Positions 53,388-60,330 of a DNA stretch of 64,000 nucleotides are shown piece by piece (within the stretch, counting starts at the first letter, position 1; the number at the start of each line of letters is the position of its first letter). The position numbers and the translations under genes were made by a program. Source of the DNA: Lachnospiraceae bacterium. GTDB taxonomy: Bacteria; Bacillota; Clostridia; Lachnospirales; Lachnospiraceae. The notes beneath the pieces are model-generated. The model made no database searches. It saw only the letters and a list, made by a program, of their open reading frames with translations, and was not told where the DNA came from. The DNA lies in assembly GCA_024682375.1 (NCBI GenBank), contig JAIKZI010000039.1, forward strand, positions 144,338 through 208,337. The letters are read 5' to 3'.

Positions 53388-54572
53388 TTAGGCTCTTTTA
53401 TATTGATTCAATCCGCAGAGCTTATCTACCGAATGAATAATCTCAAGTATCTCAGGAACGAAGAAATTATGTTCCTGCATAACCCTATCAATTTCATCTC
53501 TTTCGAGTTTGACAGATTCAGTATTATGGTTGATCTGGTCTCTAATCTTCTGTCGTCTAACAATGAGACGATGTTTAACCTCAACCATCTCATCATGATT
53601 TACCAAGGCTCTGGCCTGATATTCCCAAATCTTTGAATCATATAGTTTCTTCGACTCAAGGAATTCCATAAACTGTTCAACACAGAACTCCATATCTCTA
53701 TTATTTCTTCTATAGAGATCTCTTTCAGCCTTTTCAATCTGATAATTATTAAAAATATATTCCAACTCCATAGCTGACTCTACACTATAACGATTATAGA
53801 CGTAACGCACAGCATTAGTTATATTAGCATATTTCATCCTTGATGAGTTAAGCATCGGGATAATTTTGTTCAAATATTTTAAAGAACGCTTCCTTCTACG
53901 CCTGATTGATGAAGACCAGGCAAAGAACAGGGAAAAAGATACCCCGCCGAAAACAAGCAATGCCACGAAATACCATGTTATATCTTTATCCGAGGTATTG
54001 TCAAAGAAAAGAATAATAGCAAGTGCTAATAGACAGATGAAAAAAAGAAGAATCGATACAATTCTAGAATTTTTCTCCGCTCTTTTTATATTTTCTCTTT
54101 CTATTTCAATAGCATTCTTTTCACCTTCAAGATGATGCATATCCTTTTCAAGAGAATGCTGATATATCTCATTTTCCTTTAGTCTCAAAATAGTATTAGG
54201 AACATCTTCAAAATTCTCTTCCATCATAGTGTAGTTTTCTTCAGATATTCTCTTTTCTCTATGTTCAAAACTAGATCTGGAACGAGATAGCTCGACAATC
54301 TTTCCAGCTAAAACCTTAAGATCAGCTCTCTCCTCTTCAGGCATATTTTCCAAAATATCAATATCATTTAGATACTTTGTAACAATTCTATACTCTTTCT
54401 TTTCAGCCTCGATTTCTTTTGTATTAGAAACGATCTGTTCACAGGAATCTAGAATATATCTCTCCAGTTTCTTAGGATCGTCCCAATCATCAAGTGTACG
54501 TATTTCTTCTAGAGTTCGATTAAATGCCTGATCTAGATTTTCCTTCTTTTTCTTCTTACCAAATCCAAACAT
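53388..54572 (-). CDS. Uncharacterised coiled-coil protein with two central TM helices
   Basis: IVSILLFFICLLALAIILFF and ITWYFVALLVFGGVSFSLFFAW flanked by long charged coiled-coil regions. Confidence 0.65.
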   Translation of the reverse strand: MFGFGKKKKKENLDQAFNRTLEEIRTLDDWDDPKKLERYILDSCEQIVSNTKEIEAEKKEYRIVTKYLNDIDILENMPEEERADLKVLAGKIVELSRSRSSFEHREKRISEENYTMMEENFEDVPNTILRLKENEIYQHSLEKDMHHLEGEKNAIEIERENIKRAEKNSRIVSILLFFICLLALAIILFFDNTSDKDITWYFVALLVFGGVSFSLFFAWSSSIRRRRKRSLKYLNKIIPMLNSSRMKYANITNAVRYVYNRYSVESAMELEYIFNNYQIEKAERDLYRRNNRDMEFCVEQFMEFLESKKLYDSKIWEYQARALVNHDEMVEVKHRLIVRRQKIRDQINHNTESVKLERDEIDRVMQEHNFFVPEILEIIHSVDKLCGLNQYKRA

Positions 54573-54589
54573 AGTCTCTCCCCTATTAA

Positions 54590-55405
54590 TTAAATACCAC
54601 TATTCTTCTCATATTCACTTTCCCAAATGCCTACCAGAGCGGCAAGTGATTTTGGATCTTGTGAATACGCCTTTTCCACCTTGGCTTTAAAAGATTCTAC
54701 ACTCGAAGAGTTTATAGAATTATTAAATTCATCTTTAACAACTTCAACTAAATCAGGTGGAACCAGGTATCTATCTACAACAGCTTTAAATGCATTCTCA
54801 TCATTCATCAAAAGAACACAATGTAACAGAGCTTTTATAGATTCAGTACGTCTATTTTTTTCATAGGCACTATTAAAACATTCTTTAGCTTCTTCAAAGA
54901 AAAACATCCTAGAATAGCAAACACCTAAATTGTAAAAAACATCTCCTTCATTTACAACGCTTAGTTTCAAATTCTTTCTGTCTTCTAGAATTGAAGTATA
55001 TTCTAGCACCGCATCTGAAAGACGGTCAGAATGAAGCAATCTGTCTGCCCTGATTTTTCTGATTTCAGCTTCACTTTTATTTTCCAATGCCTGAATACGG
55101 TCAATTGTTTTCTTTAAATCGCTCTCAGTCAAATATCCACAATTACTTAGTAGACGTCCAACAAAAATATGTAAAGAAGCACCTTCGGCAATCAAATCAT
55201 CCAACTCACGTTTTAATGCAGGAAGATGTAATTCTTCTCCAACCCAGTTAGTAAAGTCGCCTGTCATAATATCTTCACTAAGCATATCAGTATGCTTAAA
55301 AGCTAGATGAGATAGCTCCTCTAAAGAATAGATATTTATACCGAAGTCATCCATGTAATATGGTGTTCCGGCTAAAGGAATCTTGCAAAGTATCAAATCG
55401 CCCAT
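54590..55405 (-). CDS. TPR-like repeat protein of unknown function
   Basis: GDVFYNLGVCYSRMFFFEEAKECFNSAYEKNRRTESIKALLHC TPR-like helices; adjacent to the ATPase gene. Confidence 0.65.
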   Translation of the reverse strand: MGDLILCKIPLAGTPYYMDDFGINIYSLEELSHLAFKHTDMLSEDIMTGDFTNWVGEELHLPALKRELDDLIAEGASLHIFVGRLLSNCGYLTESDLKKTIDRIQALENKSEAEIRKIRADRLLHSDRLSDAVLEYTSILEDRKNLKLSVVNEGDVFYNLGVCYSRMFFFEEAKECFNSAYEKNRRTESIKALLHCVLLMNDENAFKAVVDRYLVPPDLVEVVKDEFNNSINSSSVESFKAKVEKAYSQDPKSLAALVGIWESEYEKNSGI

Positions 55406-56640
55406 TATGCTTCCTCCTTTAGTTTGATTCTATGAACATAATTCATAGATGATCCTGGAGCTATTTCTCCAAAACCTAAATCTCTGATATTAACTTCTAC
55501 TTCCGTATCAGATACAGCTTTCGCATTTATACGAAGTCTTGTAGTTCCTTCTTCTCTATCAGGTAAATCATCTAATACAAGCTTTTCTATAGAAGCTGTC
55601 CTGCTCTCAGGTCTTTGAACCCAAAATTCAATTTCTTTAGAGCCAAACAAAATAACTTCACATTCTCCCTGACTCTGAAACCAACTTTCCCCGGCATCAA
55701 GAATTGTAAAGAACTGCATCTTATTGTCATCATTTACTTTAAGAGAAAGGTTCATCTTTAATTCATTTGAACCAATATAAACATAATTAAAATTGGAGTT
55801 TTCCTGCTTTACATATCCTGCAAAACATGCTCCCTTAGAATAAAGATTCTTTCCAATAAATACTCTTCTATTCTCTAAAAGATATTCCATGGATGATTTC
55901 ATCCACCCACCGTCAAAGCCGTCTCCTACAAGGTATACGCTAGAAATTGAATTATCTTTTAATAAAGCTCTAAGTACGCTTAAAAGAGATTCATCCTTTT
56001 TTAGTTTTCCAAGTGTATCCTTTCCAGATTTAAGCTTTACAGTAATTGGAGTTGTATGTCTATCTAAACTCAAAAAAGTATAAGCGATATCAGATTTATC
56101 ACAATCCAAAAGCAAAACATCATGCATAAAAGTTGTGGCATCCTGATTCAATGCATAATAATAAAAAGCCTCCATATAATCGATAACAAGAAGTCTATCT
56201 TCAGGCAATGACAACTTATTTGTAATAATCGAACAAAGTTCAGCCATATCCAGTGAAAGTGATGGAACTGTAATAACAAGCTTCTTAACAGAATTTGCAT
56301 TGACAGGCATTCCGGATATTTCGAGCAAATGCTTTATATAAATAGTAAGAAGATCTCTTGAAGAATAAATCTTTCCATCTATTCTTATTTCATTATTAGA
56401 TAAAGCATTATTGAGAAGATTTTCAGCCTCCTCTGCGCTGCCTTCAGCTATCATATTCTTAGCTTCTTTGCCATAGAACCACTGATCCAAGCCTTTTCTC
56501 TTTGCTAAGCAAGTAGGAATCTGAAACTCTTCACTTCCCATAACAGTACTTACGCTTCCTGGTTCTTTCATGGAAGAATTGTAATAGCTCAATATTGTAT
56601 TTTTAATTCCTAAATCAATTCCGAAAAAAATGCCTTCCAC
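55405..56640 (-). CDS. Hsp70/actin-like ATPase-fold protein (DUF5716-like)
   Basis: FFGIDLGIKNTILSYY phosphate-1, VITVPSLSLD, SSVYLVGDGFDGGWM adenosine motif, KGACFAGY; C-terminal RLRINAKAV...IRDLGFGEIAPGS. Confidence 0.75.
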   Translation of the reverse strand: MEGIFFGIDLGIKNTILSYYNSSMKEPGSVSTVMGSEEFQIPTCLAKRKGLDQWFYGKEAKNMIAEGSAEEAENLLNNALSNNEIRIDGKIYSSRDLLTIYIKHLLEISGMPVNANSVKKLVITVPSLSLDMAELCSIITNKLSLPEDRLLVIDYMEAFYYYALNQDATTFMHDVLLLDCDKSDIAYTFLSLDRHTTPITVKLKSGKDTLGKLKKDESLLSVLRALLKDNSISSVYLVGDGFDGGWMKSSMEYLLENRRVFIGKNLYSKGACFAGYVKQENSNFNYVYIGSNELKMNLSLKVNDDNKMQFFTILDAGESWFQSQGECEVILFGSKEIEFWVQRPESRTASIEKLVLDDLPDREEGTTRLRINAKAVSDTEVEVNIRDLGFGEIAPGSSMNYVHRIKLKEEA

Positions 56641-56658
56641 TACTTCTCTCCAAAAATT

Positions 56659-59600
56659 CTACAAACCAGAAAACAAATCTCTAGTAACAATATCCAAGCT
56701 TCCATATTCACTGAGCGAATTCTTTAAATCCAGATTCTCTGAAAGCATCATTGAATACTTCATATGATTGATTCTATCAAATCTACCCTCTTCCTGCTTC
56801 TCAAAATAATCAGGTCCAGATATTCTTCCTTCTTTTATAACCTCGCCATCTTTTTTCCCTTCAATAATCTTATAAGTAATAATATCTCCGGTAAAAAGCA
56901 CGAACATACGAATATATAATCCAGAATAAACTTCCGGCAAAGGAACAGTATATTCCTCATTATCATTCTTTTTTATTCTACAGAAAAGTCTAGCTCCGGT
57001 TTTATAAGGAATGCTTATAAAACTTCTATCATTCAAGTGATATTTAATACGCAGTCCCTTAGGCGCTGATTTAAAGAACGGGAATCTGATATTTCTAGAG
57101 ATATAATATCTCAAATACTTATCCAAAGTCTTATACTCTTCTTTTGAAAGGTTTTCCTGTTCACAAAGGAACTTGATAAGTGAGATTCTCATACTATCAT
57201 TAACATTATCATCTAAAACGACTGAACGATAAAGTTCATTAATAAAACAATCAGGAAGTGCAGCATCTGAAAGAATGTTTTCTCTACTCCAGAATGTCAA
57301 AAAGGCTTCCTTCACCATCCTATTATGTCTGTCTCCAAGAAATGCTTTAAAAATATCTTCTGGGAAATGTTCCTTAAAAGATGTGTAAATCATCTGGAAA
57401 ATGATTCTCTCAGCAAATCCTTCCTGTTTAACATCACATTCTTTGCATACGGAAAAAATCTTCTCCATACACTCTGTTGCACCGGAATAAAACTTTGCCA
57501 AATAGCTTGCACTCGCCTGCGAAGCATAACCCTTCATAAGTAAATTTGAAGCCAAAAGTAATAATGTATCATCTGATGCAAACTCTAAGTAAACAATCAT
57601 TACATTTACAAGATTGAGCATAAGTTTCGGATCACAATCTGAAGCATCAACCACCTTTATATACTCATAAGCTTCTTCAAATTTATGAGATCTAATCGCA
57701 TAAGATACTATCTCTTTTACAATATATTTAGGTAGAGAAAGCTTATTTCTTCTAGTCCAAATATATGAAAGAATAATATCCTCTTTCATATTGTCTTTTA
57801 AAAGAGCATATATTTCATCATAACGTCTAACCAAGAAATCAGAGTCAAAATCACTATTCTTAAATATAGATTCAATAAACGGAATATCCTTGTTTGTAAA
57901 AGCTACATTCTCATCTTCTCTTGTAAGATTATAAAGCATAGCAGGAACAGAATGACTATATCTTTCCGGAAGCATTCCATCATCTGTATCCAATCTAATA
58001 ATAGGATCCATGACATATAATTCTCTATCACTATGAACTGTACCGTCCATATCGACAAGGAATATTCTATAGTTCTTATCTGTTATAGGTACATATGCAA
58101 TATTATTAACTATAGGGCATACTACAGATTTTCTATAGCAATCCTGATACAAAATAATCTGTTTTGCTTCTTCTCTCAAAACTGCAACACGATTGATAAA
58201 CAAAAATGGAACAACAAGTTCAGAAAAAGCTGCAAAATTATGATTATGATCCATCATCTCCTGATAAATCACAGTGAGATTATCATCAATTCTCTCCTGT
58301 TGCATCTCTGCAAGCGCAAAGCTTTCAATATCAGGTAAATACTCTCTATATAATCTTGGATGTTTGTTCTGATTTGCAATCATAGCAACATAGAGAAAAG
58401 CTCTTCTTTCTATGCTTAGATTACTTGGATATCTAAAATATAAAAGTACAGATTCTGGGATTTCTTCTACACTATCAAGTGGAAGAGAGTTTAAATATGC
58501 CTCAAATAAACCAGAAACATTGATTCCCTCTTCAATACCCTTTTTATACCATTTTGAATATTCTTTAGAAAACTTCTCATTTTTAATTAGATAATTCAAA
58601 ATAGCTTCTAATAATTCAAAAGAACTATCCGTCTTATATGCAGTGGTTACTATTTCAAATACAATTCTATCGAATCCTTCACTTGCCCTGAGTAATCCAG
58701 CTAAAACAGAAATAATATCCATAGTAAAAGAATGATTCTTTCTGCCAAAGTTTAAAACTTTTACAGTAAATGGATCAAAACTCTGAACCAGATAAGGATG
58801 TAATTTAAATACATCTAATGCTTCTTCAAGAAGAAATGAAGAAACATATCCTGAATTTACCCACTGTTTAATATCTCTAAGTTTTCTGGCAGGATCATCC
58901 ATATATTCTTTTCTAAGATACAATAAAAATAGGAAAATTCGAGAATCCTCAGAATTCATTCTAAAAATCTTCTCTATTTCATCTGTAAGCTTTTCCTGAT
59001 AATGCTCATCAGGATCTATAAGAATACATAAATATAAAAGATAAGCCCATTCAAACTTACTATGATCTTTGATATCAGCCTTTAAATCTCTAATAAGCCA
59101 AAGAGCTTTTTGTCTCTCTCCATTTAGAATTCTGACATGAGAAAGCAATAATCTATCTAATATAGGCATACGATATGAAATATATTCTTCCTCATCTTCA
59201 GATGGTTTTCTGTCTAAATCTAAATCCCAGGTCTTCTCTTTTCTTTCGTGAATCTTTCCTTCATCATCGAAATAAATAGCTGCATCGCTAATAGAATTCT
59301 GGGATTCCTCTATTTTAAAGGAAATAATTAAATTTTGATATAATTTCTTGCTTAAGGCTGCAATACCCAGATTTCCAGTTCTATAAGATATCACATCTCT
59401 TAAAATTTCTGTACGAATTCTCTTCTTTCGAATCTCTAATTTTCTTTCACAATAATCCTCATCCAAAAGATTTGCATCGACAAAAACACTTCTATAAGTA
59501 GAGCCATCATAAAACTTGATTTCTCCACGATTCTTACCTTTATGCATTTTTTCCGTACGAATATAAAACTTATAATCGTACTCTCTTCCTAAGAATTCAT

Positions 59601-60330
59601 TTTCAGTAATTCTTCTCAAAGGTAAGTCAATAAAACTAGATGATGTAGTAATAAATAAATCGAGCTTTCCCCAGCTGGATCTAGTGATATTAATTGTGCC
59701 TCTCTGATCATCTGTAATATCATTAAACTCGATATTTTTAGCATCTAGTGTATAAGTTAATTTTGTATTTAATTTTGTTTCTTCAAGGAAATGCTGAAGA
59801 TTAATACCTGATGGTACAGCTTTTTGATATCCCTTATATAATACTCTGATATCTACCGGCTGTTTTTTTATAAATCTTTCAAATGTACGCGTTCTAAATA
59901 ACGTCAAGCCTTCGTTAAAATCAATTTCACAAAGCTTGCCGAAATCTTCTAACGTTTTGATTTCTCCTATAGATGAAATAAGTGGAGATGATTTGAAAGT
60001 GAATTTAAATGGGACTCTTACTTCGCCCATATTATAGACAACATCAAAATACCCTGTGAGTTCATCCACAGAGGTAAAAGAATTTGTAAGTGTATGGAAA
60101 GAAATATCTACACTCTTTCCATCAAAAGTTGGATTATCGATGCACACATAAGGGCTAGATGCATATACATAGCCCTTTATGTCCACATCATTTTTCGAAC
60201 CAATGGTAAAAGAGCCAGATATAATCTGCTCCTCATTACCATCTAATTCGATATTAGAAGGAGAAATATTAAGTTCTGGTTTTAAATCCTCAAACCTATC
60301 TTCTGAAATTTTCCAGATTCGCCTTTTCAA
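56659..60330 (-). CDS. Giant uncharacterised protein, N-terminal Ig-like beta domain plus long helical region (DUF5717-like), TTG start
   Basis: 1223 aa intact ORF; N-terminus LNISPSNIELDGNEEQIISGSFTIGSKNDVDIKGYVYASSPYVCIDNPTF...GEVRVPFKFTF resembles a beta-sandwich; the rest is mostly helical. Confidence 0.75.
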   Translation of the reverse strand: MKRRIWKISEDRFEDLKPELNISPSNIELDGNEEQIISGSFTIGSKNDVDIKGYVYASSPYVCIDNPTFDGKSVDISFHTLTNSFTSVDELTGYFDVVYNMGEVRVPFKFTFKSSPLISSIGEIKTLEDFGKLCEIDFNEGLTLFRTRTFERFIKKQPVDIRVLYKGYQKAVPSGINLQHFLEETKLNTKLTYTLDAKNIEFNDITDDQRGTINITRSSWGKLDLFITTSSSFIDLPLRRITENEFLGREYDYKFYIRTEKMHKGKNRGEIKFYDGSTYRSVFVDANLLDEDYCERKLEIRKKRIRTEILRDVISYRTGNLGIAALSKKLYQNLIISFKIEESQNSISDAAIYFDDEGKIHERKEKTWDLDLDRKPSEDEEEYISYRMPILDRLLLSHVRILNGERQKALWLIRDLKADIKDHSKFEWAYLLYLCILIDPDEHYQEKLTDEIEKIFRMNSEDSRIFLFLLYLRKEYMDDPARKLRDIKQWVNSGYVSSFLLEEALDVFKLHPYLVQSFDPFTVKVLNFGRKNHSFTMDIISVLAGLLRASEGFDRIVFEIVTTAYKTDSSFELLEAILNYLIKNEKFSKEYSKWYKKGIEEGINVSGLFEAYLNSLPLDSVEEIPESVLLYFRYPSNLSIERRAFLYVAMIANQNKHPRLYREYLPDIESFALAEMQQERIDDNLTVIYQEMMDHNHNFAAFSELVVPFLFINRVAVLREEAKQIILYQDCYRKSVVCPIVNNIAYVPITDKNYRIFLVDMDGTVHSDRELYVMDPIIRLDTDDGMLPERYSHSVPAMLYNLTREDENVAFTNKDIPFIESIFKNSDFDSDFLVRRYDEIYALLKDNMKEDIILSYIWTRRNKLSLPKYIVKEIVSYAIRSHKFEEAYEYIKVVDASDCDPKLMLNLVNVMIVYLEFASDDTLLLLASNLLMKGYASQASASYLAKFYSGATECMEKIFSVCKECDVKQEGFAERIIFQMIYTSFKEHFPEDIFKAFLGDRHNRMVKEAFLTFWSRENILSDAALPDCFINELYRSVVLDDNVNDSMRISLIKFLCEQENLSKEEYKTLDKYLRYYISRNIRFPFFKSAPKGLRIKYHLNDRSFISIPYKTGARLFCRIKKNDNEEYTVPLPEVYSGLYIRMFVLFTGDIITYKIIEGKKDGEVIKEGRISGPDYFEKQEEGRFDRINHMKYSMMLSENLDLKNSLSEYGSLDIVTRDLFSGL

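Follow-up and report, generated by a model that had tools for sequence, protein, structure and literature searches.

What do the four genes at positions 53388 to 60330 of the window (the whole 64,000-nucleotide stretch of Lachnospiraceae DNA analyzed here) encode, and do their products, one of them resembling Hsp70, work as one machine? A sequence-only reading had described four tightly packed genes on one strand, and the open reading frames (ORFs), here called A to D, were confirmed on the minus strand with the following coordinates and lengths:

56659..60330 (-): gene A, a DUF5717 protein of 1223 aa with a TTG start, a putative cytosolic scaffold with predicted tandem Ig-like domains and a long TPR/HAT-type alpha-solenoid
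55405..56640 (-): gene B, a DUF5716_C protein of 411 aa with a GTG start, predicted to be a lidless pseudo-Hsp70 with an NBD without subdomain IIB and an SBD-beta
56596..56622 (-): phosphate-1 motif of B (GIDLGIKNT), Asp retained and T11 equivalent lost
56089..56106 (-): phosphate-2 motif of B (DCDKSD), degenerate; the DnaK counterpart is DLGGGT
55915..55932 (-): adenosine motif of B (LVGDGF), 60 residues past phosphate-2, versus 143 in DnaK
55423..55752 (-): SBD-beta-like C-terminal domain of B, without an alpha lid, assigned from AF2 strand order and Foldseek
54590..55405 (-): gene C, a putative TPR adaptor of 271 aa with an ATG start
53388..54572 (-): gene D, a predicted coiled-coil membrane hairpin of 394 aa with two TM helices and an ATG start
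53913..54062 (-): TM helices 1 and 2 of D with a short acidic outer loop between them, predicted from hydropathy and flanking charge

Genes A and B are separated by 18 nt, B and C overlap by 1 nt, C and D are 17 nt apart, and a Shine-Dalgarno-like run lies ahead of every start codon. With gltX 29 nt downstream of D and the end of a glutamate-synthase-like gene 45 nt upstream of A, transcription in this genome may extend beyond the cassette.

Pfam searches bore out the earlier guess that the two large proteins belong to DUF5716 and DUF5717. Two profiles match protein A, PF18984 (E 2e-175, 585.5 bits) and PF18983 (E 7e-61, 206.5 bits), against a gathering score of 25 bits, and B matches PF18980 (DUF5716_C; E 3e-90; 302.5 bits versus a gathering score of 34.7). 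For C, Pfam gave TPR matches below the cut-off only (TPR_2, E 3e-4, residues 155-184), and for D nothing above it. Searches of the cassette proteins against NCBIfam, PADLOC, and PHROGs yielded nothing useful, the sole PADLOC match being a weak one to the TM region of D (E 0.007). A full-text literature search found no paper on the cassette or on the function of either DUF, the one paper that mentions either being on an unrelated topic, in keeping with the earlier description of the system as undescribed.

Profile searches of PDB sequences with A and B gave no match, and fold comparison was therefore needed for both. The AF2 model of B, built with 61 sequences, has a pLDDT of 91 and a pTM of 0.82. 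In a Foldseek comparison of this model with the PDB, all 50 matches listed were Hsp70-family chains (best E 4e-18), among them the lidless Ssz1 of RAC (6sr6, 5mb9) and Hsp110/Sse1, and the alignments cover both the NBD and the SBD-beta of Hsp70s. Model and matches thus place an Hsp70-fold protein at the heart of the cassette, as had been proposed, with an actin/Hsp70-type nucleotide-binding domain and an SBD-beta assigned by predicted fold only; a paralog, K3 (see below), aligns through the SBD-beta of DnaK 2v7y. The SBD-alpha lid is missing, and B terminates after the beta domain. The Pfam HSP70 profile, PF00012, does not match B at E 0.1, and in the window genome it matched DnaK and two proteins of ~340 aa (the size of MreB), but not B.

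Alignment with DnaK indicates that B has lost T11, K70, E171, and T199 (DnaK numbering), as well as the phosphate-2 glycines, although the E171 column is alignment dependent, with an invariant Glu 1-2 residues off in B. The D8 equivalent is retained, D194 is retained in 47 of the 61 sequences, and the adenosine-motif Gly is also present; retention of D8 and, mostly, of D194 means that nucleotide binding could still matter. Only 14 of the 77 residues of the subdomain IIB span remain in B, and it is the missing subdomain that shortens the distance from phosphate-2 to the adenosine motif. The phosphate-1 and adenosine motifs noted in the sequence-only reading therefore stand, whereas phosphate-2 is degenerate, and with key catalytic residues and subdomain IIB lost, the label “ATPase” for B is unsupported. 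Structure prediction instead describes B as a lidless Hsp70 of NBD and SBD-beta from which catalytic residues and IIB have been lost. In the B proteins of three loci (L079, L190, and L194), the HMM match begins only at position 95-135 of 398, indicating that part of the N-terminal nucleotide domain is lost or changed there too.

The predicted structures of the partners agree with the giant Ig-like/helical scaffold and the membrane-linked coiled coil proposed earlier. In the AF2 model of an A ortholog (pLDDT 87, pTM 0.60), a pair of beta-sandwich domains is accompanied by two long stretches of alpha-solenoid and, at the C-terminus, by a beta domain; Foldseek relates the model to central-apparatus/HYDIN-type Ig-like (Ig/ASH-type tandem) domains and TPR/HAT solenoids with low TM-scores, which indicate fold class only. 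Protein C is homologous to the TPR protein of an expanded locus (below), whose TPR match has an E value of 2e-21. Two TM segments were predicted in all 66 D orthologs, and their basic flanks suggest a hairpin with both ends probably in the cytosol. No convincing TM segment was found in A, B, or C.

Protein B also occurs elsewhere in the order, and 15 loci from families other than Lachnospiraceae carry a larger cassette. The DUF5717 gene of these loci is usually split, and more genes follow it on the same strand, giving the order split DUF5717, K1, X, K2, K3, K4, and TPR protein, with sizes of ~558 aa (K1), 279-645 aa (X), ~470-535 aa (K2), ~546 aa (K3), and ~690-725 aa (K4). The exception is L077, with no K4 or TPR gene called within the stretch analyzed, and a D homolog was called in two of the 15 loci. 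Pfam matches in one representative (L064) identify K1 (HSP70, E 2e-77), K3 (HSP70, E 3e-57), and K4 (HSP70, E 2e-95, plus VWA, E 1e-10) as Hsp70s, X as a protein with a C-terminal GrpE domain (E 1e-14), and K2 as the ortholog of B (DUF5716_C, E 2e-25, plus HSP70 [PF00012], E 2e-16). The GrpE domain recurs in X of L070, L072, and L073. These three additional Hsp70s and the GrpE-domain protein of the relatives were not visible from the window alone. In K4 the VWA domain occupies the place of the Hsp70 lid (e.g., L064:12517-14676), and at L070:11114-15904 (genome G097) three ORFs of ~490-526 aa without a Pfam match lie between the GrpE-domain protein and K2. A J-domain partner was also considered and rejected: no HPD motif occurs in the unlabeled ORFs of the expanded loci, and no J-protein is encoded in the cassettes.

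The Hsp70s of the expanded loci differ in what they retain. The catalytic set is intact in K1 and K4 (one K1 has R in place of K70), K3 has lost only K70, mostly replaced by Y or F, and K2 has lost K70 and T199 and, in most cases, T11 and E171. In a tree of these Hsp70s, with long branches and an arbitrary root that leave its details unsure, K1, K3, and K4 each form one clade and the Lachnospiraceae B falls together with the K2 proteins from two further families. Parsimony suggests that Lachnospiraceae lost K1, X, K3, and K4, with gain in the other families as the alternative. Each of eight Lachnospiraceae genomes encodes one GrpE-domain protein and one canonical DnaK, plus MreB-sized matches, and each of four genomes with the expanded cassette encodes two GrpE-domain proteins; three of these four have a single DnaJ. 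Nucleotide exchange factors act on subdomain IIB of Hsp70 (PMC4753570), and the absence of IIB together with X is consistent with this.

The reading that we favor, with a probability of roughly 0.55, is that A, B, C, and D form one membrane-tethered cytosolic complex with an Ssz1-like B, and that this complex is the reduced core of an ancestral multi-Hsp70 machine. B would be a nonhydrolyzing, lidless pseudo-Hsp70 acting as a scaffold or holdase, and by analogy its SBD-beta might bind peptides of clients or partners weakly and with fast kinetics, independently of a cycle of ATPase, J-protein, and GrpE. The TPR protein C would bind B directly and bridge it to A, the Ig-like/alpha-solenoid scaffold of ~1200 residues, and in most species the coiled-coil hairpin of D would hold the complex against the cytosolic side of the membrane. 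The ancestral machine, kept in sister families, would comprise two ATPase-competent Hsp70s, one of them with VWA replacing the lid, as well as a third Hsp70 in which only the K70 equivalent is lost and a dedicated exchange factor with a GrpE domain.

By analogy, the nearest mechanism to that of B appears to be that of Ssz1, which binds but does not hydrolyze ATP and has no lid (PMC8476630, PMC7083937). Ssz1 of the yeast/fungal RAC and B share an Hsp70 fold in which SBD-alpha is absent and SBD-beta is kept; neither is expected to hydrolyze ATP or to depend on an exchange factor, and the fixed complex of Ssz1 with its partner would have a counterpart in the putative complex of B. However, Ssz1 is eukaryotic and works with a J-protein partner at the ribosome, whereas B is bacterial, additionally lacks subdomain IIB and the phosphate-2 loop, and has as candidate partners a TPR protein, an Ig/solenoid protein, and a membrane hairpin rather than a J-protein.

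Considerably less probable, though the strongest of the alternatives, is that B is a co-chaperone of the ordinary DnaK, which would bind ATP without hydrolysis in the manner of Ssz1 or Hsp110 and recruit DnaK/DnaJ to a membrane site; the cassette would then serve general folding or secretion as a docking platform. The matches of B to Ssz1 and Hsp110/Sse1, its retained phosphate-1 Asp and adenosine Gly, and the presence in the genome of one canonical DnaK with GrpE and several J-proteins are consistent with such a role. Against it, the cassette has neither a lid nor a J-domain protein, the IIB surface is missing from B, and the expanded relatives supply active Hsp70s and a GrpE-domain protein of their own rather than relying on DnaK. 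The expanded cassette resembles the canonical DnaK-DnaJ-GrpE system in the DnaK ATP motifs of K1 and K4 and the GrpE domain of X, but it has no J-protein, includes lidless Hsp70s, and has a degenerate K2/B, while the window cassette contains neither an active Hsp70 nor a GrpE. Extra specialized Hsp70s beside a housekeeping DnaK are also described for Myxococcus xanthus (PMC8265645), among them SglK, which is of the DnaK type and able to complement E. coli dnaK; no mention of a DUF5717-like scaffold or an Hsp70 without IIB was found there.

The proposal of a single complex also draws on gene order. A scan of named genomes gave 500 relatives, from which 80 loci were retained, mostly from Lachnospiraceae by title (Pseudobutyrivibrio, Butyrivibrio, Roseburia, Eisenbergiella, Kineothrix, and MAGs). 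Of these 80 loci, 66 have the exact order A-B-C-D, eight have A-B-C, and three have A-B; loci short of A-B-C-D are mostly A-B-C or end at a contig edge. Median gaps are 14 nt (A-B), 8 nt (B-C), and 16 nt (C-D). The immediate flanks vary, with upstream neighbors falling into 13 gene clusters and downstream ones into 23, the commonest upstream neighbor being a divergent aminotransferase-like gene. Conservation of A-B-C-D is far beyond chance, and together with the distribution and the changing flanks it upholds the earlier view of the genes as one conserved unit. Gene D was found in 69 of 75 judgeable loci and is absent in six. In four genera (L191-L194), B and C form a single ORF of 684-723 aa, and mapped onto a quick tree of A the fusions call for two or more changes; fusion is the best evidence in the analysis that B and C may act together, and it supports the TPR partner proposed earlier. 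At L080:1261-4113 (genome G238), a single ORF of 950 aa covers both D (residues 33-379) and GltX (residues 464-944), either through a true fusion or through a lost stop. Gene A has a non-ATG start in 48 of 53 orthologs (TTG in 32, GTG in 16), accompanied by a Shine-Dalgarno run and located at 60328-60330 in the window, which suggests a conserved damping of translation. Heat-shock control was rejected, as no CIRCE or CtsR-like site was found upstream of A in 109 loci.

That the four genes are simply coexpressed neighbors without a shared complex is improbable: the fusion evidence is limited to B and C, and D can be absent, as this explanation would allow, but the order is constant across Lachnospiraceae while the outer neighbors change, and the same partners recur in the expanded cassette of other families.

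Among sampled genomes of the order, DUF5717_N was found in 123 of 246 and DUF5716_C in 117 of 246. In Lachnospiraceae, DUF5716_C occurs in 117 of the 120 genera sampled, as a single copy in each, and one of the three genera without it retains DUF5717. Class and phylum samples contained no credible relative outside the order, only short weak matches, and the expanded-form DUF5717 alignment used as a query likewise gave nothing credible beyond it; a scan of genome contigs with B alone found no match, and pattern search was precluded by the divergence within an alignment of the two cassette forms. No plasmid carrying B was found. Four unannotated metagenomic “Bacteriophage sp.” records (MT835486, MT835988, MT835719, and MT837190) encode DUF5717-like proteins with 18-27% identity to A and are probably bacterial contigs. 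Among the 80 loci, the window B is nearest the Pseudobutyrivibrio side (45-49% identity). Identity of A, B, C, and D to their closest relatives is 31-49%, versus 75-80% for the neighboring gltX; such fast divergence is unusual for a housekeeping chaperone, the role that the cassette would have, and counts against the reading that we favor.

Fast divergence would fit a system for conflict or stress sensing that resembles the GAP1-N2 GTPase systems (Kaur et al. 2020, PMC7159879), of which some include HSP70, GrpE, a second HSP70, and FNIII-DnaJ or FNIII-TPR proteins. These systems are the nearest described genomic theme, and the cast is similar: Hsp70 with GrpE, a degenerate second Hsp70, Ig/FNIII and TPR giants, VWA, and a membrane link through a TM protein. 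Nevertheless, the DUF5717 cassettes have up to four Hsp70s rather than one or two, and the defining GAP1/GTPase components are absent, leading to rejection of this candidate: the GAP1-N2 domain is missing in 14 of 15 genomes searched (the match in G088 lies on another contig), and no conserved GTPase or J-protein occurs among the neighbors of the 15 expanded loci. PADLOC gave only its weak match to D, and the cassette occurs once in nearly every genus of the family, whereas defense systems are patchy in distribution. A relationship of this kind is thus quite unlikely. The cassette is classed here as a variant Hsp70 system, belonging to neither the Ssz1 nor the GAP1-N2 systems.

The possibility that B is an actin-like cytoskeletal ATPase polymerizing into an envelope or intracellular structure, as “cytoskeletal” in the sequence-only reading implied, is the most remote, since the common actin/Hsp70 superfamily core and the scaffold and membrane coiled-coil partners are outweighed by best structural matches to Hsp70s, not actins, across both NBD and SBD-beta, by the loss of the phosphate-2 loop and catalytic residues, and by the absence of subdomain IIB, which makes filament contacts in actins.

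The reading of A-B-C-D as a membrane-tethered complex built around a pseudo-Hsp70 can be taken one tentative step further: the order may have a dedicated membrane multi-Hsp70 machine with four specialized lidless Hsp70s (one bearing the VWA domain), a GrpE-domain factor, the Ig/solenoid giant, and the TPR adaptor, of which Lachnospiraceae, one of the dominant gut families, keep an ATPase-free core as a nearly universal, possibly essential scaffold. If so, an Hsp70 can shed the entire ATP cycle along with the subdomain for exchange factors and still survive as a membrane scaffold. The expanded and reduced cassettes provide a bacterial case of an Hsp70 becoming a pseudo-enzyme in a visible series, from intact K1 and K4 through K3 without K70 and K2 without most catalytic residues to B, which also lacks IIB, and they connect, in a testable way, the loss of subdomain IIB with that of a dedicated GrpE. 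Lachnospiraceae rank with the most abundant butyrate producers of the gut, and the cassette is present once in nearly every genus sampled, yet no description of it was found in the literature. Should the cassette prove essential, it would serve as a target and marker specific to the family.
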